Source of the DNA: Acidobacteriota bacterium
Lineage (GTDB): Bacteria; Acidobacteriota; Terriglobia; Terriglobales; Acidobacteriaceae
Assembly: GCA_021836865.1 (NCBI GenBank)
Contig: JAKBHH010000007.1
Location: 1 to 64,000 of the forward strand
Reading direction: 5' to 3'
DNA: 64,000 nucleotides
The translations under genes were made by a program, and so were the position numbers. The notes under the pieces are model-generated. The model was not told where the DNA came from. It saw only the letters and a program-made list of their open reading frames with translations, and ran no database searches. Shown here in pieces: positions 36,224-47,874 of this stretch (the first letter of the stretch is position 1; every line of letters begins with the position of its first letter).

Positions 36224-36396
36224 TGGAAAAGGGGCCGCACGGCGCCTCGGCAATCCGCTATGACGCGCGCGCAGGCAAACCAAATTGAACCGTTCCCGCT
36301 CTCTTCGAATCTTCATAGAGTGGCGGGCATTCGCGCATTGTGTTTCCGGCCACGCGCCGGCAATCGCGTAAAGGAACTGAGGCTTCGCAAAACCGC

Positions 36397-38403
36397 ATGA
36401 GTGCAAAGCAGGGAAAGACAGTATCCACGGCGCCCCGATTCGGCCGGCTGGATGCGGACATGGGAGACGTGGAGCAGGCCATCCTGCGCTCCCGCGATTT
36501 CCTCCTTTCGCAGCAGCACCCGGACGGCCACTGGTGCGGCGAACTTGAAGCTGACTCCATGCTCGAGGCCGACTACATCTTTCTCCACACGCTGCTTGAG
36601 AGCGGCGACCCCGGCCGGCTCCAGCGCGCTTTCGTTGAGATGATGCGCTACCAGAACGACGACGGCAGTTGGAGCATCTATCCCGGCGGCCCCGGCAACA
36701 TCTCGCTCTCCGTCAAGTGCTACGCCTCGGCCAAGCTTATGGGCCTCAGCGCGGACGATCCGCGCCTGGCCCGTTGTCGCGCTTGGGTGCTCGCCCACGG
36801 CGGCGTCGTCGAGTGCAACACCTTCACCAAGATGTATCTCTGCGCCCTCGGCCAGTATGACTACGACGCCGTACCAGCCATCCCTCCGGAGATCGTGCTT
36901 TTCCCCAACTGGTTCTACTTCAACATTTACGAGATCTCCTCCTGGTCGCGCTCCATCCTCGTGCCGCTCGCCATCATCTACGCCAAAAAACCCTTCAAGA
37001 AGATTCCGCCCGAGCAGGGCATCGACGAACTCTACGTCGGCGGCCGCGCCAACTCGATTCTCCGCCTGCGCCGCGACCGCAAAAAATTCTTCTCATGGCG
37101 CAACTTCTTCATCATCCTCGACCGCATCATGCATTTGTCTGAGGCCGTTCACCTGCGCCCCTTGCGCACCCTGGCCCTCAAACGCGCGGAAAAATGGATG
37201 CTCGACCGCCTGGAAATGACAGACGGCCTCGGCGCCATCTACCCCGCCATGATGAACGCCATCATCGCCCTCCGCTGTCTCGGCTATTCTGAAGACGATC
37301 CGCAGGTCATCCGCGCCCGCGACGAGTTCGAGAAGCTCGGCATCGAGCAGCCAGCCACACCGGAGATGCCTGAGGCCACCTTCCGCATGCAGCCCGCCGT
37401 CTCCCCGGTCTGGGATACCGCGCAGACCGTCTATGCCCTCGGCGAGGCAGGCGTGCCCGCCAACGATCCACGCATGGTCAAAGCCGCGGACTGGCTGCTC
37501 TCCAAAGAGGTCCGCCACAAGGGCGACTGGGCCGTTAAAGTCCCCAACGTCGAGCCCGGCGGCTGGTATTTCGAATACAACAACGAGTTCTACCCCGACA
37601 CCGACGACACCGCGCAGGTCCTGCTGGCCTTGAAAAAAGTTGACAATCCCCGCGAGCGCTATCAGCATCAGGTCGCTGAGCGCGCCATTGCATGGGAGTT
37701 CGCCATGCAGTGCAAGAACGGGGGCTGGGGCAGCTTTGACAAAGACAACACCAAGATGATCTTCCAGTACATCCCCTTCGCGGATCACAATGCCATGCTA
37801 GATCCGCCCACGGTGGACATTACAGGGCGCATGTTGGAGATGTTCGCCTGCTACGGCTACACACGCGACGACAAGCGCGTCCAGAAGGCCATCAAGTTCA
37901 TCTTTGCCGAACAGGAGCCCGACGGAAGCTGGTTTGGCCGCTGGGGCGTCAACTACATCTACGGAACCTTCCTCGTGCTGCGCGGCCTTGAGGCCATCGG
38001 CGTCGACCATCTCGAGCCGCAGGTGCAGCAGGCGGCCGAGTGGATTCGCATGGTGCAGAATCCCGACGGCGGATGGGGTGAGACCTGCGGCAGCTACGAC
38101 GACCCGAATACCCGCGGCATCGGGCCCAGCACACCCTCGCAGACGGCTTGGGCGCTGCTTGCCCTTCTTGCAGCCGGCGACGACCGCTCCGATTCCATTG
38201 CCAAAGGCGTCCGGTGGCTCCTCGCGCGCCAGAAGGCCGAAGGCAGTTGGGACGAATCCATGGGCCACGGACCCACCCGTCAGAACATCATCACGGGAAC
38301 CGGCTTTCCCAGGGTCTTTTATCTGTCTTACGACATGTACCGCAACTATTTCCCGCTGCTGGCCCTCACCACCTACAAGCGGGCTATGGAGCGCGCCGCG
38401 TAG
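36397..38403 (+). CDS. shc: Squalene-hopene cyclase
   Basis: This 668-residue enzyme cyclises squalene to hopene/hopanol in one step at the membrane. The acid motif DTDDTA is at residues 401-406, in FYPDTDDTAQVLLAL, matching the catalytic DxDDTA of the family. Several QW repeats are visible, such as GHWCGEL, GGWGSFD, GSWFGRWG and GGWGETCGSYDD. ATG 36397 (MSAKQGK) was chosen for length; the frame is open to TTG 36340, and no good ribosome binding site decides between them. It is followed after 264 bases by hpnH. Confidence 0.97.
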   Translation: MSAKQGKTVSTAPRFGRLDADMGDVEQAILRSRDFLLSQQHPDGHWCGELEADSMLEADYIFLHTLLESGDPGRLQRAFVEMMRYQNDDGSWSIYPGGPGNISLSVKCYASAKLMGLSADDPRLARCRAWVLAHGGVVECNTFTKMYLCALGQYDYDAVPAIPPEIVLFPNWFYFNIYEISSWSRSILVPLAIIYAKKPFKKIPPEQGIDELYVGGRANSILRLRRDRKKFFSWRNFFIILDRIMHLSEAVHLRPLRTLALKRAEKWMLDRLEMTDGLGAIYPAMMNAIIALRCLGYSEDDPQVIRARDEFEKLGIEQPATPEMPEATFRMQPAVSPVWDTAQTVYALGEAGVPANDPRMVKAADWLLSKEVRHKGDWAVKVPNVEPGGWYFEYNNEFYPDTDDTAQVLLALKKVDNPRERYQHQVAERAIAWEFAMQCKNGGWGSFDKDNTKMIFQYIPFADHNAMLDPPTVDITGRMLEMFACYGYTRDDKRVQKAIKFIFAEQEPDGSWFGRWGVNYIYGTFLVLRGLEAIGVDHLEPQVQQAAEWIRMVQNPDGGWGETCGSYDDPNTRGIGPSTPSQTAWALLALLAAGDDRSDSIAKGVRWLLARQKAEGSWDESMGHGPTRQNIITGTGFPRVFYLSYDMYRNYFPLLALTTYKRAMERAA

Positions 38404-38667
38404 CCGGCAAAGTGAACCCTGGATCCCCAGGTTCGGCGTTTAAGTCCTGGGAGATCAGCAACCGCAACCTGCTGCAGCCTACCCGCTGCAGCCGACTGAA
38501 AAACCTGTCAAGAGGTGTCGCGCCGCAAACAATCGGCCGAATCCACGTAACCCTCGTGATTCCAGCCTCTTGTGAAACAGAAAAACTTCGTCAGGTTTTG
38601 CAGATTATTTCCGCGATTCGCCTAACCTAGAGGTAGTCGCAAATAGCACCGGAGGATTGCTCAAACT

Positions 38668-39786
38668 ATGGCAGTTCCAATCTCACAGATGTGGACCGTC
38701 GCCACCTACGTTCTCAAGAAGCGTCTTGGCGGCAACAATCGCTATCCGCTCGTGCTGATGCTTGAGCCGCTCTTCCGCTGCAACCTGGCCTGTGCCGGCT
38801 GCGGGAAAGTGCAGTATCCCCCGCACATTCTCAAAAAGCAGCTCACGCCAGAGGAGTGCTTTGCAGCCGTCGAAGAGTGCGGTGCGCCCATGGTCTCCAT
38901 TCCCGGCGGCGAACCCCTGCTCCATCCCCAGATTGTCGAGATCGTCAACGGCCTCATCGCGCGCAAAAAGTACATTTACCTCTGCACTAATGCGCTCGAG
39001 CTCAAGCGACGCCTGCCGGAGTTTACGCCGTCCAAGTACCTCACCTTCTCCGTCCATTTGGACGGCGACCGCGAGCACCACGACTTTTCCGTCTGCCGCG
39101 AAGGCGGATACGACATCGCCATTGAAGGCATCAAAGAGGCCGTCAAGCGCGGCTTCCGCGTCACTACCAACGCGACGTTCTTTGACGGCACAGATCCCAA
39201 CAACGTACGCGGATTCTTCGATGACGTGATGGCAATGGGAGTCGAGGGCATCGTTCTCTCACCCGGCTACAGCTACGAAATGGCGCCCGATCAGAATCGC
39301 TTCCTCGGCCGCGCCCGCGTGCGCCGCCTCTTCCGCGCCATCCTGTCCAACCGCAAGCCGACGTGGAAGTTCAACATGTCGCCCCTGTTTCTTGAGTTCC
39401 TGATGGGGGACCGCAAATACGAGTGCACTCCGTGGGGTTCGCCCGCCTACAACATCTTTGGCTGGCAGCGCCCTTGCTACCTGCTCCAGGATGGATACAC
39501 TGAAACATTCAAGGAGTTACTCGAAACCACTAAGTGGGAAGAGTATGGCGTAGCAAGCGGCAATCCCAAATGCGCCAACTGCATGGTCAGTTGCGGCTAC
39601 GAGCCCACCGCCGTCATGGATGGCTTCGGTTCGCTCTCCGGCATCTGGGGCATGGTGAAGGGAACCTTCAGCCTGTACAAGGATGAACATGCATTGAAGT
39701 TGCTTAACGAGCCTGCACCGCACGGCCCTGCATCGCTGGTGCAGATCGACAAACAGGCGCGCACCCTGGAGGAGACCAACGCATGA
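38668..39786 (+). CDS. hpnH: Adenosyl-hopene transferase (radical SAM)
   Basis: This 372-residue radical SAM enzyme attaches the 5'-deoxyadenosyl group to diploptene, giving adenosylhopane, the first extended-side-chain hopanoid. The 4Fe-4S cysteines are Cys38, Cys42 and Cys45 (FRCNLACAGCGKVQ, CX3CX2C). Two additional cysteines at the C-terminus (CANCMVSCGYEP) may bind a further cluster or zinc. GGAGG lies about ten bases before ATG 38668. It overlaps the next gene by four bases (ATGA). A weak hairpin and about 260 bases separate it from shc, so it may have its own promoter. Confidence 0.95.
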   Translation: MAVPISQMWTVATYVLKKRLGGNNRYPLVLMLEPLFRCNLACAGCGKVQYPPHILKKQLTPEECFAAVEECGAPMVSIPGGEPLLHPQIVEIVNGLIARKKYIYLCTNALELKRRLPEFTPSKYLTFSVHLDGDREHHDFSVCREGGYDIAIEGIKEAVKRGFRVTTNATFFDGTDPNNVRGFFDDVMAMGVEGIVLSPGYSYEMAPDQNRFLGRARVRRLFRAILSNRKPTWKFNMSPLFLEFLMGDRKYECTPWGSPAYNIFGWQRPCYLLQDGYTETFKELLETTKWEEYGVASGNPKCANCMVSCGYEPTAVMDGFGSLSGIWGMVKGTFSLYKDEHALKLLNEPAPHGPASLVQIDKQARTLEETNA

Positions 39787-40211
39787 CCGCCGAAGTCGCA
39801 AAGTACACCATCGAGCAGGTAGAAGCGCTCGAGCTGGCTCCCGGCTCGGAGCATGAGATGCTCGAGGGCTGGGTGCCCACGCTAGCCAGCGATGAAGACC
39901 TGCGTCAGGCGCTCGAGAAGGCCTTCGATTTTCGCGGCGATGTGACTCTCACGCTCAAGTCCGGCGAAAAAATCGAGGCATTCATCTTTAATCGCCAAAC
40001 CGGCGGCTCTCTTGCCGACTCGTTTGTCCAATACTTCACGCCCAACGCAACCGGCAAGCGCAAAGTCTGCTATGCCGAGATTGCCCGCATCGAGTTCAGC
40101 GGCAAAGACCGCGCCGCAGGCAAACATTGGGAAGACTGGGTCAAGGCCTACAATGAGAAGAAGGCCGCCGGAGAAAAGAACATCGCCCTTCACCCGGAGG
40201 CGCTGGACTAG
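39783..40211 (+). CDS. Small SH3/Sm-like protein coupled to hpnH, unknown function
   Basis: This 142-residue soluble protein starts within the stop of hpnH (ATGA), implying translational coupling. The middle, FRGDVTLTLKSGEKIEAFIFNRQ, and KVCYAEIARIEFSG, look like the strands of a small barrel with a G turn, resembling Sm/SH3-type folds. A helical tail follows (DRAAGKHWEDWVKAYNEKKAAGEKNI). No signal peptide or membrane segment. No function is known to me. Its place between HpnH and HpnA suggests a chaperone, scaffold or regulatory role in side-chain synthesis; this is inference. Confidence 0.65.
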   Translation: MTAEVAKYTIEQVEALELAPGSEHEMLEGWVPTLASDEDLRQALEKAFDFRGDVTLTLKSGEKIEAFIFNRQTGGSLADSFVQYFTPNATGKRKVCYAEIARIEFSGKDRAAGKHWEDWVKAYNEKKAAGEKNIALHPEALD

Positions 40212-40407
40212 CGGAAAGTCGAGGATTTCTCGTCGTTCCTTTTCCTTCGCCAAACTGGCTTGATTGTGAGAGGGACCGCTGAAAGGTAAAGATCTGCGGG
40301 AGGACCAGAGCCATTATCTCCTGTAATCTGCTCCTTTTCTTCGCCCTCTTCATGGGCGATCCCGATCGTCGCATACCAGGCGGAGCGGACTTGTTGATTT
40401 GTACGTT

Positions 40408-41421
40408 ATGAAAGTCTTTCTCACAGGCGCAACCGGTTTTGTTGGCCACCATGTGGCCAGGGCTCTGGCAGACGAGGGCGCTGACCTCCGCATGTTGGTC
40501 CGCCGCACCAGCAACCTCAAAAACCTTGAAGGCATCCCCGGCGAAACAGAAGTCGGTGACCTTGCTCGCCCCGAGTCCTTTGCCGCCGCTCTGGCCGGCT
40601 GCGATGCGGTCATGCATGTCGCCGCAGACTACCGCCTGTGGATTCGCGATCCCGACTCGATGTATCGCGTTAACGTGGACGGCACACGCGATCTGCTCCG
40701 CCTCGCTCGCGAGGCCCGCGTCCCGCGCTTCGTCTACACCTCCTCCGTCGCCACAATGCACTTCCGCACCGACGGCATCGTCATCAATGAGGACACGCCC
40801 GTCTCCCTGTCTGATATGGTCGGCCACTACAAGCGCTCCAAGTTCATCGCCGAACAGCAGGCCATTGCCGCTGCACAGGACGGCCAGCAGGTCATCATCC
40901 TCAATCCCTCAACCCCCATCGGCCCCTTCGACACCAAACCCACTCCCACCGGCCGTATTTTTGTCGACTTCCTCAACCACAGGTTTCCGGCCTACATGGA
41001 CACTGGCCTCAATCTTGTAGATGTAACGGAGGTCGCCCGCGCCCACGTCGCCGCGCTCACCCGTGGCACTCCCGGCCGCCGCTACATCCTCGGCGGAGAA
41101 AACCTCACCCTCAAGCAAATCCTCGACAAGATGTCGGCGATCACCGGCATCCCTTCGCCCACAGTAAAGATTCCCTTCGCCGTCGCGCTCACCTACTCGT
41201 TCTTCGAGGAGTGGATCACCGGCCATCTCCGCGGCCATGAGCCCCGCGCCACGCTCGAAGAAGTTCGCATGGGCCGCAAAAAGATGTATGCCTCGTCCGC
41301 CCGCGCGCAACAGGAACTCGGATTCCGCATCGTGCCCGTCTACCCCGCCATGCGCGCCGCAATTGATTGGTTCCGCGCCAACGGCTACGCGCCGTCCGAG
41401 CCCGCGCAGGTCCTGCCGTGA
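40408..41421 (+). CDS. hpnA: Hopanoid-associated sugar epimerase-like SDR
   Basis: This 337-residue extended short-chain dehydrogenase has the NAD-binding motif KVFLTGATGFVGHHVARAL and the active-site YxxxK in GHYKRSKFIAEQQ; VYTSSVATMH supplies the serine. It matches the HpnA family of hopanoid gene clusters, whose exact reaction is not settled. ATG 40408 was chosen; TTG three codons earlier is possible. It is separated from the small coupled gene by about 195 bases and overlaps hpnG by four bases (GTGA). The reductase fold suggests action on the sugar-derived side chain. Confidence 0.9.
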   Translation: MKVFLTGATGFVGHHVARALADEGADLRMLVRRTSNLKNLEGIPGETEVGDLARPESFAAALAGCDAVMHVAADYRLWIRDPDSMYRVNVDGTRDLLRLAREARVPRFVYTSSVATMHFRTDGIVINEDTPVSLSDMVGHYKRSKFIAEQQAIAAAQDGQQVIILNPSTPIGPFDTKPTPTGRIFVDFLNHRFPAYMDTGLNLVDVTEVARAHVAALTRGTPGRRYILGGENLTLKQILDKMSAITGIPSPTVKIPFAVALTYSFFEEWITGHLRGHEPRATLEEVRMGRKKMYASSARAQQELGFRIVPVYPAMRAAIDWFRANGYAPSEPAQVLP

Positions 41422-42089
41422 CCCGCACCGGCCTCATCGCCGCCATCTCCGGCGAACTCAAACCGATTGTCCGCGGCTGGAAGCACGAGCGCCGCAACGG
41501 AGTCGACTTCTGGGCGCACCGCGACGAAAACCTCTACGTTGCCGCCTGCGCCGGGGCCGGCCAGGCCGCTGCAACCCGCGCCTTTGCCGAAATCGAAAAG
41601 GACGCCCCCGTCGACCTCGTCTTCTCCCTCGGCTGGGCCGGTGCTCTTACGCCTGATCTCGCCGCCGGCAAAGCCTACAACGTCGCCGGGGTCGTGGATG
41701 CCCGCACGGGCGAGCGCTTCCATTGTGACGCAGGGGCAGGCGAACATTGGCTCGCCACCAGCCCGATCGTGGCCGACGAAGCTGAAAAGCGCCGTCTCGC
41801 CTCCACCTATGGGGCAGCTCTGGTCGACATGGAAGCCGCTGCCATCGGCCGTCTCGCCGCCATGCGCGGCATCCCGTTCTATTGCATCAAAGGCGTCAGT
41901 GACGGAGTGGATGCCAAACTGCCCGATTTCAACCGCTTCCTGACGTCAGATGGGCACTTTCAGACCGCGCGTTTTACTCTGTATGCTCTCCTGCGGCCGT
42001 GGTACTGGCCTGCACTGACGCGTATGGGCGAGAATAGTAAAAGGGCCGCTCAGGGCATTGCGGAATCCCTGCTCGATTTTCTCCGATGA
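41418..42089 (+). CDS. hpnG: Adenosylhopane nucleosidase/phosphorylase
   Basis: This 223-residue protein belongs to the nucleoside phosphorylase fold. It contains AAISGELKPIVRGW near the N-terminus, VFSLGWAGAL, and the typical VDMEAAAIGRLAAMRGIPFYCIKGVSDG motif for substrate binding. HpnG removes adenine from adenosylhopane to leave ribosylhopane or its phosphate. GTG 41418 overlaps the TGA of hpnA; its own stop overlaps the next ATG (ATGA), so three genes are coupled. The late LRPWYWPALTRM may touch the membrane. Confidence 0.9.
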   Translation: MTRTGLIAAISGELKPIVRGWKHERRNGVDFWAHRDENLYVAACAGAGQAAATRAFAEIEKDAPVDLVFSLGWAGALTPDLAAGKAYNVAGVVDARTGERFHCDAGAGEHWLATSPIVADEAEKRRLASTYGAALVDMEAAAIGRLAAMRGIPFYCIKGVSDGVDAKLPDFNRFLTSDGHFQTARFTLYALLRPWYWPALTRMGENSKRAAQGIAESLLDFLR

Positions 42090-43243
42090 ATGAGGTCACG
42101 TCAGAAAAGCGAATGGCTACACAAATCACAAGCGCTGAACGCCGAATCGAAAAAGTGATTCCCACCACCATGCGAGCCGTGGTCTACCGTGGCGTCAATG
42201 ACATGCGGGTCGAGACCGTCCCCGTCCCCGCAATCGGCCCCGGCGAACTTTTGATCCGCATTGCCACCTGCGGCATCTGCGGCACCGACCTCAAGAAGAT
42301 TCACTCCGGTTCCCACTCCGCGCCGCGCATCTTCGGCCATGAGATGGCTGGAACCATTGCGGCCGTCGGAGCGGGCGTCACCGACTATGCCGTGGGCGAC
42401 CGCGTGATGACCTTTCACCATGTTCCTTGCGGCAAATGCTACTACTGCCGCAAGCAGACGCCGGCGCAGTGCCCGCTTTACAAGAAAACCGGTGTTACGG
42501 CCGGCTTCGATCCCTCCGGTGGCGGCTTTGCGGAGTACATCCGCGTCATGGACTTCGTCGTCGCCAACCGCGGTGTCGTGCGCATCCCAGACGGCGTGCC
42601 CTTTGAGCAGGCCGCCTTTGTCGAGCCGGTGAATACCGTGCTCAAAGGCGTGAAGCTACTCAACCTGGCTCCCGACGATACAGTGCTTGTCATTGGACAA
42701 GGGCCCATCGGTCTGATGCATGCCGTCCTTGCCAGCCGCATCGGCGCCAAGGTGCTCACCTCAGACCTCTACCCCGAGCGCCATGCCATCGCAGCGAAGT
42801 TCGGTTTGCAGCATCCAATCCATGCAGGGACTGAAAACGTGGTGGAGCGAGTGCTCGCAGAGACCGAAGGCAGGGGAGCAGATGCCGTGGTGTTGGCCGT
42901 CGGGGGAACCGCACTGGTCCGCACCGCCATGGACGCAGCCCGGCCCGGCGGCAAGGTGATGCTCTTTGCGCAGACCCAGCATGGCGAGGTCACCATCGAT
43001 CCCGCTGCCGTCTGCGTGGATGAAAAGACGCTTCTCGGCTCATACTCCTCATCCTTCCCCATTCTGGATGAGGTCACGGATCTGGTCTTCGACGGCTATC
43101 GCAATGGATTCGATCTGACGCAACTCATCTCGCACCGTTTTTCCATCGAAGACGCGGTACCTGCAATTGAAGTGGCTTCGCACCCCAAAGCAGACTCGAT
43201 GAAGATTATGATTGAGCCTGTTCCCGGCGCGGGAGTCGAGTAG
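42086..43243 (+). CDS. Zinc-type MDR dehydrogenase 1 of the hopanoid operon
   Basis: This 385-residue protein is a medium-chain alcohol dehydrogenase. The catalytic zinc region is ATCGICGTDLKKIHSG with FGHEMAGTI, the structural zinc site is PCGKCYYCRKQTPAQC (four cysteines), and the nucleotide site is VLVIGQGPIGLMHAVLA. It resembles sorbitol/threonine dehydrogenases. A 28-residue polar extension precedes the usual N-terminus (MRAVVYRG); ATG 42086 is favoured because it overlaps the hpnG stop. Coupling to hpnG suggests action on the ribosyl side chain, for example reduction of ribosylhopane; substrate is not proven by sequence. Confidence 0.8.
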   Translation: MNEVTSEKRMATQITSAERRIEKVIPTTMRAVVYRGVNDMRVETVPVPAIGPGELLIRIATCGICGTDLKKIHSGSHSAPRIFGHEMAGTIAAVGAGVTDYAVGDRVMTFHHVPCGKCYYCRKQTPAQCPLYKKTGVTAGFDPSGGGFAEYIRVMDFVVANRGVVRIPDGVPFEQAAFVEPVNTVLKGVKLLNLAPDDTVLVIGQGPIGLMHAVLASRIGAKVLTSDLYPERHAIAAKFGLQHPIHAGTENVVERVLAETEGRGADAVVLAVGGTALVRTAMDAARPGGKVMLFAQTQHGEVTIDPAAVCVDEKTLLGSYSSSFPILDEVTDLVFDGYRNGFDLTQLISHRFSIEDAVPAIEVASHPKADSMKIMIEPVPGAGVE

Positions 43244-43250
43244 GGGGCTG

Positions 43251-44492
43251 ATGCCAACCTCAGTCAAGAACGCACTCAAGCGTAGCCGCTCCACAGTCGA
43301 AACGGTTATTGAGCATGGCCGCGCCACAGTCGAAACGGCGATCGAACATGGTCGCGCGACGGTAGAAGACGCGCTCCATCACGGCCGCGCCACGGTCGAG
43401 AGCGCACTTCTTCACGGCCGCGCAACGGTGGAAACCGCGCTCTATCACGGCCATGCCACCATGCAGGCCGCGGTTCTCCACGGCCGCGAAGATATCCGCA
43501 TTGAAAATGTTCCGGTGCCCAAGGCTGAAGCGGGCGAATTGATAGTGCGGGTGGGCGCGGCGCTCACCTGCGGAACAGACCTGAAGGTCTTTCGCCGCGG
43601 CTATCACGCGAGGATGATTGTGCCTCCCGCGCTCTTTGGACATGAACTCGCGGGCACTGTTGTCGAAGCGGGCGTCGGCGTGGCCGATTTTGCGCCCGGC
43701 GACCGTGTCGTTGCGTTGAACTCCGCGCCCTGTGGTCAATGCTACTTCTGCCAGCGCAGCCAGGAGAATCTCTGCGACGACCTGCTGTTCAACAATGGAG
43801 CCTACGCTGAGTTCATTCGCATTCCTGCGCGTATCGTCGCCAAGAACACGCTCCGCATTCCTGACCACGTTCCCATGGAGCACGCCGCGCTCACAGAGCC
43901 TCTGGCCTGCGCCGTGCATGGCTTTGAGGATTCGCGCCCGCATCCCGGCGACACAGTGGCGATCATCGGTGGCGGCCCGCTGGGGCTGATGATGCTGCAC
44001 GTAGCCGCGCTCGCGGGCTGCCACGTAATTGCTGTGGTCAAGCACGATGGCCAGGTCGAAGCAGCGCGCCAGCTTGGCGCGGCCCATGTCGTGCAGGCCG
44101 GCACCATTCGCAAAGCCATTCGCGAAACTCGCGCCCTCACTCCAAAAGATCGCGGCGTAGACATCGCCATTGAAGCCGTCGGCGTGCCCGAGGCATGGGA
44201 AGAGGCTGTCGAGATGGTGCGCAAAGGCGGCACCGTCAACTTCTTCGGCGGATGCGCCGTGGGCACCCGTGTAAACCTTGACACCAATCGCATCCACTAT
44301 AGCGACATCACGCTGCGCGCCACCTTCCATCACACGCCGGCCATCTGCCGCAAGGCGCTGGATCTCATCGCCGGCGGACACTTCCAGGCGAGCGCCTTTA
44401 TTACCGGCCACGCGCATCTCTACGAACTGAACCGCGTCTTTGAGAAGCTGATGAAGCGCAGCAGCGAAATCAAGACCGCGATCGTGCCCTGA
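43251..44492 (+). CDS. Zinc-type MDR dehydrogenase 2 with N-terminal 11-residue repeats
   Basis: A 413-residue protein from ATG 43251. Residues 13-78 are six tandem 11-residue units (consensus R-A-T-V-E-x-A-h-x-H-G). The sixth, ATMQAAVLHGR, coincides with the normal first strand of the dehydrogenase (MQAAVLHGREDIRIENVPVP). The catalytic part has LTCGTDLKVF and FGHELAGTV (catalytic zinc), PCGQCYFCQRSQENLC (structural zinc) and IIGGGPLGLMMLHVAAL (cofactor). An 11-residue period favours an amphipathic helix, possibly membrane-attached. Seven bases follow MDR 1 and nine precede hpnC. Start sites further downstream would remove the repeats, but AGGGGG before 43251 supports this one. Confidence 0.8.
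   Translation: MPTSVKNALKRSRSTVETVIEHGRATVETAIEHGRATVEDALHHGRATVESALLHGRATVETALYHGHATMQAAVLHGREDIRIENVPVPKAEAGELIVRVGAALTCGTDLKVFRRGYHARMIVPPALFGHELAGTVVEAGVGVADFAPGDRVVALNSAPCGQCYFCQRSQENLCDDLLFNNGAYAEFIRIPARIVAKNTLRIPDHVPMEHAALTEPLACAVHGFEDSRPHPGDTVAIIGGGPLGLMMLHVAALAGCHVIAVVKHDGQVEAARQLGAAHVVQAGTIRKAIRETRALTPKDRGVDIAIEAVGVPEAWEEAVEMVRKGGTVNFFGGCAVGTRVNLDTNRIHYSDITLRATFHHTPAICRKALDLIAGGHFQASAFITGHAHLYELNRVFEKLMKRSSEIKTAIVP
43287..43484 (+). repeat. Six tandem 33-base units inside the second MDR gene
   Basis: Units begin at 43287, 43320, 43353, 43386, 43419 and 43452. They encode near-identical 11-residue segments such as RATVETAIEHG and RATVESALLHG. Third positions differ between units (GTC/GTA/GTG, CAT/CAC), so protein sequence is better preserved than DNA, which suggests selection on the encoded helix. 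Confidence 0.95.
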
Positions 44493-44501
44493 GGCCCTGC
44501 C

Positions 44502-45497
44502 ATGACGACGGCGACCCTGCATCCTGACAACGATGCGTTGGACAACAATGCACTAGACCGCGGCTGGGCTGCGCTGCCCGCATCGTATCGCATGCCCGAC
44601 GTGGCGCCTTCGCTCAATGAGGCGCGAGCCTGGTGCAGGCAGCTGGCAGAGTCGCACTATGAGAATTTTCACGTCGCGACATGGTTTTTGCCCAAGGTCC
44701 TGCGTCCGCACTTTCATGCTATCTATGCCTATTGCCGCGTCTCCGACGACCTTGGCGATGAGGTCGGAGATCGCTCCGCTGCGTTAGCCCTGCTCGATCT
44801 GTGGGGACGTGAGCTCGATGCCTGCTACGAAGGCCGCGTACGCCACCCTGTCTTTGTCGCGCTGGCAGAGACGATTCGCGCCTGCTCCATTCCCAAAGAG
44901 CCCTTCGCCGATCTGCTGAAAGCCTTTCGCCAGGACCAGACCGTCACGCGCTATCGCACCATCCAGGAGGTACTGGAGTATTGCCGCTATTCAGCGAATC
45001 CGGTGGGCCGCCTCGTCCTCTACGTCTGCGGCTATGCCGACGAAGAGCGCTTTCAGCTCTCTGACGCCACCTGCTCCGCGCTGCAACTGGCCAACTTCTG
45101 GCAGGATGTGCGCGTCGACTTCGGCAAGGACCGCGTCTATCTTCCGCAAGAGGATATGAAACGATTTGGTGTGAGCGACGAGACGATTGCCCAGGGCGCG
45201 GCAACGCCCGAATTTCGCGCCCTGCTCAAGTACGAAGTGGATTTTGCGCGTGGACTCTTTGAGGATGGACTTCCGCTCATCGGCATGGTGGGCAGTGAGC
45301 TGGCACTCGACCTCGATCTCTTCAGCCGCGGCGGTCTTGCGATTCTGCGCGCCATCGAGCGCGAGAACTATGACGTGCTGAGGGCGCGGCCTGCTCTTTC
45401 CAAACGCACTAAAATGGCGCTGGCACTGCGCGCGTTCAGCGGCAAGGTGCTCCCATTTCTTCGTTTGAGCGAACGTTCCGCAGGGAAGGCGGCTTGA
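44502..45497 (+). CDS. hpnC: Hydroxysqualene synthase HpnC
   Basis: This 331-residue squalene/phytoene synthase-type enzyme converts presqualene diphosphate to hydroxysqualene. Aspartate-rich motifs are AIYAYCRVSDDLGDE and LANFWQDVRVDFGKD, which bind magnesium-diphosphate. YENFHVATWFLPKVLRPHF near residue 55 is the HpnC-type N-terminal block that distinguishes it from the second paralogue. The first 45 residues form a polar extension. It starts nine bases after the second dehydrogenase gene and its stop overlaps the start of hpnD (TTGA), so the order dehydrogenase-hpnC-hpnD is one transcript. Confidence 0.92.
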   Translation: MTTATLHPDNDALDNNALDRGWAALPASYRMPDVAPSLNEARAWCRQLAESHYENFHVATWFLPKVLRPHFHAIYAYCRVSDDLGDEVGDRSAALALLDLWGRELDACYEGRVRHPVFVALAETIRACSIPKEPFADLLKAFRQDQTVTRYRTIQEVLEYCRYSANPVGRLVLYVCGYADEERFQLSDATCSALQLANFWQDVRVDFGKDRVYLPQEDMKRFGVSDETIAQGAATPEFRALLKYEVDFARGLFEDGLPLIGMVGSELALDLDLFSRGGLAILRAIERENYDVLRARPALSKRTKMALALRAFSGKVLPFLRLSERSAGKAA

Positions 45498-46405
45498 CGC
45501 ACGACTCCACAATTGAACAGGCCTATGCTGTGTGCAGGGGCATCGCAAAGCGCGAGGCAAAGAATTTTTATTACGCCTTTGTCGCGCTACCCAGGGCGCG
45601 TAAGAACGCCATCTGCGCCGTATACTCCTTCATGCGCAAGGCCGACGACCTCGCCGACGATGAAAGCCTGCCTCGCGAAGAGCGCCGTATCAGGCTCGAT
45701 GCATGGCTCGCCGACTGGCGCGGCGTCTGCCACGGCGGCGATTCCTCCGACCCGGTTTTCATCGCCGTGCGCGATGCCACGGAGCGCTTCGGCATTCCGC
45801 TGAGCCTGCTCGATGAGCTCGTGGCGGGAACCGCGACGGACCTGGACGCCAACACGAACGAGGCGCCCGGCACCTATGCGACCTTTGCCGATCTCTACCG
45901 CTACTGCTATCTGGTTGCGTCTGTCGTGGGCCTGGTGTGCATCCGCATCTTCGGCTACACAGACACGGCGGCAGAAAAGCTCGCCGAAGAGACTGGTATC
46001 GCCTTCCAGCTTACCAATATTCTGCGCGACGTCGCCGAGGATGCCGAGCGCAGGCGCATCTATCTTCCGCTGGCGGACCTTGCCGCGCACCATGTTCCGC
46101 TCGACGCGCTGCTCCATCGCACACCCGGCGCACCCCCGTCCACGCAAGAGCGCGCGCTGCTGGAAGAGATTGCACAGCGCGCGGAGAATTACTACCGTTC
46201 CGCGCAAGCGCTGCTCCCGCTGATTGACCGCGAAAGCCGCGCCGCACTTTGGGTTCTGGTCTCCATCTATCATGCGCTCCTCAAGCGAATCGAGCGCGCG
46301 AACTACGACGTATTCTCCGAGCGAGCCCGCGTACCGCTGCTTCAGAAGGTCGCGATTCTTTCCGCAGGCCTGGCGCGGATGGCCGCTGCGCGGTTCGTTG
46401 GCTGA
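45494..46405 (+). CDS. hpnD: Presqualene diphosphate synthase HpnD
   Basis: This 303-residue member of the same family condenses two farnesyl diphosphates into presqualene diphosphate. Motifs are YSFMRKADDLADDE and LTNILRDVAEDAERRRIYLP. KREAKNFYYAFVALPRARKNAI marks the HpnD-type N-terminus. It uses a TTG start overlapping the hpnC stop. Ends 44 bases before hpnE. In the three-enzyme HpnCDE route it acts first, feeding HpnC. Confidence 0.93.
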   Translation: MTHDSTIEQAYAVCRGIAKREAKNFYYAFVALPRARKNAICAVYSFMRKADDLADDESLPREERRIRLDAWLADWRGVCHGGDSSDPVFIAVRDATERFGIPLSLLDELVAGTATDLDANTNEAPGTYATFADLYRYCYLVASVVGLVCIRIFGYTDTAAEKLAEETGIAFQLTNILRDVAEDAERRRIYLPLADLAAHHVPLDALLHRTPGAPPSTQERALLEEIAQRAENYYRSAQALLPLIDRESRAALWVLVSIYHALLKRIERANYDVFSERARVPLLQKVAILSAGLARMAAARFVG

Positions 46406-46449
46406 GGTTGCATCCAATGCAGCGCGGCAGCCTGCATGAAGAGGTTTGA

Positions 46450-47874
46450 TTGGCCCAGGCATTGAACAATCCGAAGGCGGCCGCGCGATTCGTCACGGTC
46501 ATTGGTGGCGGCGTGGCCGGCATGAGCGCTGCCTGTGCTCTGTCTGAGGCAGGCTTTCGCGTGCAACTCGTTGAGCGACGCGGCTACCTCGGCGGGCGTG
46601 CATCCTCCTATCTGCATCCCGGCGTCGGAGAGGTCATCGACAACTGCCAGCATGTGCTCTTCGGCTGTTGCACCAACCTCATCGGCTTCTACCGGCGCAC
46701 CGGCGTCGCAGGCAAGATTCATTGGACCCGCGAGATGACCATGATCGAGCCGGGCGGTCGCCGCTCACCGCTGGGGCCTTCATTGCTGCCTGCGCCGCTG
46801 CATGGTCTGCCCAGGCTGCTTTCTGCCGGCGCATTCACGCTGGCGGACAAGTTCGCCCTGGCTCGTGCGTTCAGCGCGCTGCTCCGGCCCGTCCCGCACA
46901 ACTCAACAGAAAGCCTCGGAGCATGGCTCCGGCGCAACGGCCAAACGCAAGGCGCGCTCGACCGCTTCTGGCGCCTCGTCATCGCCAGCGCGCTCAATGC
47001 CGACATCGACGCGATCGCCTTGCCCTATGCCGCAAAGGTCATTCGCGAACTGTTCATGAACTCCGCCGAGGCGGGCAGCATGGGCATGAGCACCGTGCCG
47101 CTCAGTGATCTATACGACGGCGCAGCCGAGTTTCTCGCGCAGCACGACTCGCATGTCCTGCTGAATATGAGTGTGGAGTCGGCGCAGTTCAACCCAGCCA
47201 ATGCTCAATGGACCGTCGCAACCAGCGCAGGCAACGTGCAATCGGACTACCTGGTTCTGGCTCTGCCGTTTGAGGCGACTGCGAAGCTCCTTCCTCATAT
47301 GCCGCCTGCTGACGGCGCACAGAATCTTGCACGGCAGATTGAGCACCACCAGCACTGGCCCATCTGCAGCGTGCATCTCTGGTTCGATCGCGCGATCACG
47401 ACGCTGGACCATGCCGTGTTGCTGGACCGCGAGATTCACTGGATGTATAACAAAAGCCTCCTGCAGCCCTGGCGCAGGCTGAAGGGCAGCTATCTTGAGC
47501 TGGTCGTCAGCGCATCAAGAAGCTTCGCAGCTTTGTCGCGCGAGCAGGCCATTGCGCAGTCCGTCAGCGAACTGGCCGAGTTCTTTCCTGCTGTTGCTTC
47601 CGCAAAGCTTGAGAAAGCTGCGCTGGTGAAGGAAGTCCGCGCGACCTTTGGCGTGCCGCCGGGTATTGATGCGGCGCGGCCTACCGCCATCTCTCCCTGG
47701 CCAAACTGCTTCCTGGCCGGTGACTGGACCGCGACCGGCTGGCCGTCCACCATGGAAAGCGCGGCGCGATCAGGGCATCTGGCGGCGGAGGCGCTGTGCA
47801 GGGCCGCGGGCGCTCCGCGAATCGTTCTCGATGCCGATTTGCGCCCCCGGGGACTGATGCGACTGCTCGCTTGA
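46450..47874 (+). CDS. hpnE: Hydroxysqualene dehydroxylase HpnE
   Basis: This 474-residue FAD-dependent amine oxidase-type protein reduces hydroxysqualene to squalene. The dinucleotide motif is VTVIGGGVAGMSAACALSEAG, followed by LVERRGYLGGRASS; the C-terminal FAD contact is NCFLAGDWTATGWPSTMESA. It uses a TTG start with AGAGGT upstream. Last gene of the hopanoid cluster; it converges on rhaB with only 32 bases between the two stops and no clear terminator. Confidence 0.93.
   Translation: MAQALNNPKAAARFVTVIGGGVAGMSAACALSEAGFRVQLVERRGYLGGRASSYLHPGVGEVIDNCQHVLFGCCTNLIGFYRRTGVAGKIHWTREMTMIEPGGRRSPLGPSLLPAPLHGLPRLLSAGAFTLADKFALARAFSALLRPVPHNSTESLGAWLRRNGQTQGALDRFWRLVIASALNADIDAIALPYAAKVIRELFMNSAEAGSMGMSTVPLSDLYDGAAEFLAQHDSHVLLNMSVESAQFNPANAQWTVATSAGNVQSDYLVLALPFEATAKLLPHMPPADGAQNLARQIEHHQHWPICSVHLWFDRAITTLDHAVLLDREIHWMYNKSLLQPWRRLKGSYLELVVSASRSFAALSREQAIAQSVSELAEFFPAVASAKLEKAALVKEVRATFGVPPGIDAARPTAISPWPNCFLAGDWTATGWPSTMESAARSGHLAAEALCRAAGAPRIVLDADLRPRGLMRLLA

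Follow-up and report, generated by a model that had tools for sequence, protein, structure and literature searches.

The locus examined here raises the question of what a repetitive tail is doing on an enzyme of lipid biosynthesis. In a genus of soil Acidobacteria, a dehydrogenase encoded among genes for sterol-like membrane lipids begins with a tandem array of 11-residue segments. Is this array really part of the protein, is it maintained by selection, from what sequence did it arise, and what might it contribute to the enzyme? These points were addressed computationally, using a window of 64,000 nucleotides (the whole stretch of DNA that was analyzed) together with related genomes.

Two dehydrogenases in a hopanoid operon

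The genes of the operon in the window are arranged in the order ispH, shc, hpnH, a gene for 142 amino acids, hpnA, hpnG, MDR1, MDR2, hpnC, hpnD and hpnE (Table 1). MDR2, the gene that carries the array, lies directly 5′ of hpnC-hpnD-hpnE, which is the position of ug2 in the acidobacterial hopanoid cluster. In the passages of Sinninghe Damsté et al. (2017; PMC5462960) that we draw on, ug2 is a conserved Zn-binding alcohol dehydrogenase of about 350 amino acids located before hpnC, its function is given as unknown, and it is found in all SD1 and SD3 Acidobacteria of that study. By position MDR2 is the same gene, although those passages mention no array and the protein in the window is longer. 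The hopanoid operon context of MDR2 is conserved, and the gene is present in 280 of 300 genomes of the family.

Several other features of this region deserve mention. The 142-residue protein has no Pfam or NCBIfam match and is conserved in the hopanoid cluster, where the same paper labels its gene ug3. MDR1 also extends beyond its domain models, by about 28 residues, and this extension has no repeats. The long open frame antisense to MDR2 includes a repetitive mirror of the array and most likely arises as a shadow frame opposite a coding strand rich in G+C. In three array-bearing genomes (L046, L057 and L065), hpnC is missing or more than 2 kb downstream of MDR2. Thus, MDR2 stays with hpnG and MDR1 when the cluster breaks, which may tie the enzyme to side-chain rather than squalene synthesis. 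Finally, a contig labelled as gammaproteobacterial (JARLJU010000370.1, Rudaea sp.) carries an acidobacterial operon with an array, and its label is probably a binning error.

Table 1. Coordinates of the hopanoid operon, MDR2 and its repeats in the window
Feature	Position	Strand	Remarks
shc, hpnH, ug3, hpnA, hpnG	36340-42089	+	hopanoid genes upstream of MDR1 and MDR2
142-aa gene (ug3)	39783-40211	+	follows hpnH
MDR1	42086-43243	+	array-less MDR dehydrogenase, paralogue of MDR2; probably ug1
MDR1 N-terminal extension	42086-42169	+	ahead of MDR models
MDR1 stop (TAG, 43241-43243) and G-rich, ribosome-site-like stretch (TAGGGGG)	43241-43250	+	directly 5′ of MDR2 start; conserved with and without array
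MDR2	43251-44492	+	zinc-dependent MDR dehydrogenase with N-terminal array; 413 aa + stop; ug2 by position before hpnC
Start codon and leader, MPT	43251-43259	+	
Unit 1, SVKNALKRSRS	43260-43292	+	degenerate; closest to native N-terminus in other species
Unit 2, TVETVIEHGRA	43293-43325	+	
Unit 3, TVETAIEHGRA	43326-43358	+	
Unit 4, TVEDALHHGRA	43359-43391	+	
Unit 5, TVESALLHGRA	43392-43424	+	
Unit 6, TVETALYHGHA	43425-43457	+	
Native unit, TMQAAVLHGRE	43458-43490	+	first beta-strand of MDR fold (strand 70-78 in the model); in array-less orthologues, homologous to MATTMKAAILHGRED
Internal ATG within native unit	43461-43463	+	
MDR core	43461-44489	+	Cys/His-Glu catalytic-zinc and four-Cys structural-zinc motifs
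hpnC, hpnD, hpnE	44502-47874	+	hopanoid genes downstream of MDR2
420-aa open frame antisense to MDR2	43260-44522	-	

Anatomy of the array

Read from its ATG, MDR2 encodes a three-residue leader and six in-phase 11-residue units of 33 bp each, which run without interruption into the native unit and then into DIRIENV. Tandem Repeats Finder assigns scores of 101 to 160 to a 33-bp/66-bp array spanning 43285-43488, and the strongest other tandem array in the window scores 58. The first-pass annotation of this DNA had likewise counted six 33-base units. In register with the native segment there are indeed six extra units if the degenerate first is included, but the earlier six came from adding the native unit to five regular ones. 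The consensus over 138 units is T-V-E-x-(A/V)-(V/I/L)-x-x-G-R-x, with T at 89%, V at 98%, E at 92%, A/V at 98%, V/I/L/F at 99%, G at 98% (Gly9 is kept in 135 units) and R at 75%.

Evidence that the array is translated

It could be argued that the protein starts at Met71, so that the array is missing from the mature enzyme and the 33-bp repeats act as a DNA- or RNA-level element. The MDR fold does begin at residue 71, as do the NCBIfam MDR models, and the internal ATG is conserved across all array genes. Signals for translation initiation are found elsewhere. A Shine-Dalgarno-like match of at least 4 nt lies before the start codon in 22 of 33 genes with the array and in 28 of 30 without it, compared with 2 of 33 internal ATGs and a background of 26%. 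The gap between the MDR1 stop and the MDR2 start is also nearly the same in the two groups (median 9 nt with the array, 10 nt without it), and the start codons of array-bearing and array-less orthologues are homologous. This shared start, together with an internal ATG that has no ribosome site, places the array inside the gene. Furthermore, array-less orthologues start four residues upstream of the methionine equivalent to Met71 (MATTMKAA...), and Met71 therefore has never been a start codon.

The reading frame tells the same story. It stays open through each of the 33 distinct arrays, nearly all changes in length are multiples of 33 nt, and the constraint described below falls on amino acids rather than on DNA. 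A start at Met71 is thus the least probable of the readings weighed here, and the array, judged from these sequence features, is translated. Translation from a downstream start, which had been named as grounds for abandoning the idea of a tail, is opposed by the ribosome site at the array start. One irregularity occurs in five orthologues (L013, L016, L057, L058 and L065), in which the last unit is one residue short before the native segment, so that the 11-residue phase is not carried over from the array to the native strand. The enzyme tolerates this one-residue slip at the junction.

Selection on the array

Differences in codons between units had suggested conservation at the protein level, and comparisons between species bear this out. 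Array dN/dS is about 0.06-0.15 for most pairs in the clade of the window, against about 0.05 in the core, with synonymous sites nearly saturated. Pooled pN/pS values are 0.17 for the array and 0.10 for the core in this clade, and 0.26 and 0.14, respectively, in genes with a second array type. Residues specific to individual units are also kept between species (ET, ED/EE, ES and ET in units 3 to 6). By these sequence measures the array is under purifying selection.

Horizontal transfer of the array by itself in recent times is not supported, as synonymous divergence is as high in the arrays as in the core. Array similarity follows operon similarity only loosely, however (Spearman 0.33), so old exchange may have occurred.

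Distribution among genomes

In a profile search of 80 genomes from the genus of the window, 43 have a highly significant match to the array, a count that leaves out two genomes matching only in YtxH- or DUF883-like proteins. In a sample of the phylum, 2 of 396 genomes have a convincing array; both belong to the genus of the window, and no sampled genome outside it has one. Within the genus, Occallatibacter savannae AB23 has the array and Terracidiphilus gabretensis S55 does not. In the window's own genome, the sole other match to the array profile has an E-value of 0.03 and lies in an unrelated reading frame. The array is also absent from MDR1 and from the sampled homologues outside the genus. 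The concern that all orthologues would lack it and make it a local accident fails because about half of the genus keeps it. The other half does without it, so the array is not essential to the pathway.

Unit number is five in one case, six, seven, or, in two cases, eight; it is six in the clade of the window. The first-pass annotation had proposed that a variable unit number with conserved phase would support a functional tail, and such variation is found among relatives, with the phase almost always kept. Unit number is stable within clades, so the array is not a hypervariable repeat. On a three-gene operon tree with array-less outgroup genera, the supported branches alone require no fewer than 9 changes in the presence of the array, and the best tree has 15.

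These gains or losses, the confinement of the array to one genus and the array-less sisters of several array-bearing species are what would be expected if the tail were a tolerated by-product, in which slippage duplicated the codons and left a folded, soluble extension that has no specific role and is often lost. Such a by-product would not readily explain the low dN/dS at saturated synonymous divergence, the position-specific residues conserved between species, the nearly invariant valine and glycine positions, or the finding of no pseudogenized or frameshifted array among 33 genes. We regard a tail without a role as improbable.

Origin of the repeats

Array-less orthologues begin MATTMKAAILHGRED, whereas array proteins begin MASTVKDAILRGRKT and continue with the units. 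The first unit (MASTVKDAILRGRK) is similar to the array-less N-terminus (MATTMKAAILHGRE), and the units match the native segment in one phase only. Scored with BLOSUM62 against the native 11-mer, units score between +19.6 and +25.7 when in phase, the ten other registers give -5 to -16, and control segments average -9.2 ± 7.0 (SD). Of 32 first-unit segments, 15 outscore every control segment (n = 22,259); the first unit in the window belongs to the more diverged ones. Because the first unit resembles the array-less N-terminus and units match in phase only, the array most likely grew by duplication of native N-terminal codons, as the first reading of the sequence had proposed.

The arrays share the derived residues Val2 and Glu3 and a first unit of the form TVKxAIxRGR. 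We therefore favor a single origin followed by repeated losses or replacements, and fully independent repeated origins are disfavored.

Predicted fold

The parent segment is a beta-strand, and its copies are predicted to adopt another structure. For MDR2 of the window, AlphaFold2 gives one helix spanning residues 5-67 followed by the native strand, with pLDDT of 56-78 in the array; for an eight-unit orthologue it gives helices at 5-42 and 47-87, with pLDDT of 51-70. The copies are thus predicted to form one long, weakly stable hendecad (11/3) helix with gapless 11-residue periodicity, consistent with the helical tail originally envisaged. On such a helix, positions 5, 9, 2 and 6 form one 98-degree stripe, with Thr1 and Arg10 flanking it and Glu3 behind.

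The strand origin also invites a different prediction, namely that the array is a small beta-solenoid or beta-arcade extending the parent first strand. In window-type arrays, harmonics at 65 and 164 degrees are as strong as the helical one, and the latter of these, along with insignificant Pfam matches to the DM9 and YdcK solenoid repeats, would suit a beta structure. The second array type, in contrast, has its dominant harmonic at 98 degrees, both types are modelled as helix, and no beta-solenoid match reaches its cut-off. A solenoid is accordingly very unlikely. Matches of the arrays to Pfam DM9, YdcK, HHH and DNA-polymerase-lambda all fall below cut-offs and differ between orthologues, and they were set aside as composition effects. 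A PDB sequence search with the array returned nothing meaningful (designed repeats, GroEL and ankyrins).

Possible roles of the tail

The tail is probably a contact arm, either to the membrane or to partner proteins. We assign a probability of roughly 0.4 to the likeliest of these readings, an amphitropic arm to the cytoplasmic membrane. The helix would rest reversibly on this membrane through the stripe of Val2, Ala/Val5 and Val/Ile/Leu6, with Thr1 and Arg10 flanking and an acidic back, and in an oligomeric MDR enzyme a number of such arms, each binding weakly, would place the active site close to the amphiphilic intermediates of hopanoid synthesis. The hydrophobic moments of the arrays (0.23-0.38, with a hydrophobic fraction of 0.33-0.41 and a lack of aromatics) are within the range of Plin4 (0.257), alpha-synuclein (0.30) and Plin3 (0.35) (PMC5889406). 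Lipid binding by the array would be plausible. Orthologue arrays also give Pfam matches to lipid-helix families (Synuclein E 0.002, Perilipin 0.03-0.16, Apolipoprotein 0.05), all of them below cut-offs (18.7 versus 23.3 bits, at most 13.7 versus 33 bits, and 13.7 versus 90 bits, respectively). Other weak matches to the array profile in the genus include YtxH-like and DUF883-like proteins. These families are membrane-anchored.

The first-pass annotation had suggested recruitment to the membrane or to the substrate. Several observations speak against a membrane arm. Although the moments are of the expected size, the 98-degree harmonic of window-type arrays does not exceed that of within-unit permutations (p ~0.48), and that of the other type is marginal (p ~0.05-0.12). 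Helix confidence is modest (pLDDT 51-78). Also, the net charge of the array is near zero, whereas anionic bacterial membranes favor positive helices. A 66-residue Plin4 helix is too short for droplet targeting in cells (PMC5889406), so array tails of 69-91 residues may be weak.

The conserved Gly/Ala/Thr ridge suits helix-helix packing equally well, which makes protein-protein contact a serious rival. In this case the hendecad helices would pack across subunits or on another hopanoid enzyme (HpnG, MDR1 or HpnC) via a ridge of Thr1, Ala/Val5 and Gly9, scaffolding a biosynthetic complex. The near-invariant Gly9 lies mid-stripe with Ala/Val5 and Thr1, as is typical of close helix packing, and positions 2, 5, 6 and 9 are hydrophobic or small and match the core (a-d-e-h) positions of a hendecad. 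An i/i+4 pair of R10 with E3′ can stabilize the helix, and a unit number that is stable within clades is what a fitted interface would produce. Such small core residues (Ala/Val/Gly) nevertheless make a weak coiled-coil core, and the operon comparison revealed no visibly covarying partner, gene content around MDR2 being identical in array-bearing and array-less operons. Given the lack of excess helical amphipathicity and the near-invariant glycine in the stripe, the membrane arm is put no higher than stated above, and protein contact is held to be possible but somewhat less probable.

Enzyme core and catalytic role

The core of MDR2 matches PF08240 (GroES-like N-domain, E 1e-23) and PF00107 (Rossmann zinc_N, E 3e-24), both above cut-off, and its zinc ligands (C107, H131-E132 and C161/C164/C167/C175) are invariant in 37 sequences. 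Pfam, NCBIfam and Foldseek place it among polyol and threonine dehydrogenases. PDB entry 4ej6, threonine 3-dehydrogenase (2dfv) and ketose reductase/sorbitol dehydrogenase (1e3j) share its fold and zinc motifs at 26-32% identity and a TM-score of 0.88-0.91 by target, but the alignments cover the core only and these proteins lack the 11-residue array. None of the named NCBIfam equivalogs (Tdh, IolM and others) passed its cut-off, the best being Tdh with 166 versus 458 bits, and thus the family does not assign a substrate. Similarly, a scan of distant MDR homologues found no hpn genes near them, so that the function is not readable from other phyla.

MDR2 plausibly belongs to the oxidoreductases of side-chain formation that are still to be assigned, acting for instance in the reduction of ribosylhopane to bacteriohopanetetrol. 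This particular step is a guess from the family and from gene position beside hpnG. The enzyme for this reduction was described in 2025 as not yet established (PMC12583986), and the two conserved uncharacterized dehydrogenases of the acidobacterial operon are candidates for it.

Relation to known systems

The gene, the operon, MDR enzymes, 11-mer helices and amphitropic enzymes of lipid synthesis are already known. What is new is a selected 11-mer array on an enzyme of the hopanoid cluster, built from its own first strand and present or absent in a natural series among sister species; a search of the open-access literature found no report of the array. It resembles the 11-mer (3-11) helices of perilipins, synucleins and apolipoproteins in its gapless 11-residue period, its richness in Val, Thr, Gly and Ala, its few aromatics, its moment and its charged fraction. 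Unlike them, it most likely comes from the N-terminus of the enzyme that carries it, and there is no significant homology.

The best functional analogy is CTP:phosphocholine cytidylyltransferase (CCT-alpha), which is also a lipid-biosynthetic enzyme with an in-phase 11-mer helix. In CCT this helix gives reversible membrane binding (PMC5889406 Table 1; PMC5971203). CCT is, however, an unrelated enzyme whose helix follows the catalytic domain in the sequence and carries more charge.

The natural series of array-less genes and genes with five, six, seven or eight units, including close relatives with and without the array, offers a way to follow how a helical domain arises from an enzyme's own first strand. 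It makes testable whether duplicating a short stretch can convert a sequence that forms a beta-strand into a helix with a function, and whether hopanoid enzymes are drawn to membranes by 11-mer helices in the manner of CCT. The boldest account would combine these ideas, such that tandem copying of first-strand codons made a soluble enzyme amphitropic, the copies refolding into a 3-11 amphipathic helix that docks on a hopanoid-rich membrane. A lipid-binding domain and a strand-to-helix switch would then have emerged within one gene of one genus, on in some species and off in their sisters. Taken as a whole, this account is rather unlikely.

Short 11-mer-like helical runs (VDRGKEQ...) also occur in the YtxH-like and DUF883-like proteins of the same genus, which, in contrast to MDR2, are small and have no catalytic domain; their match to the array profile is too weak for a claim of homology. 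In two genomes, YtxH-like proteins carry such runs (VDRGKEQVSQFVDRGKEQVGEYVDRGRAQWEEF) together with a sub-threshold Apolipoprotein match.
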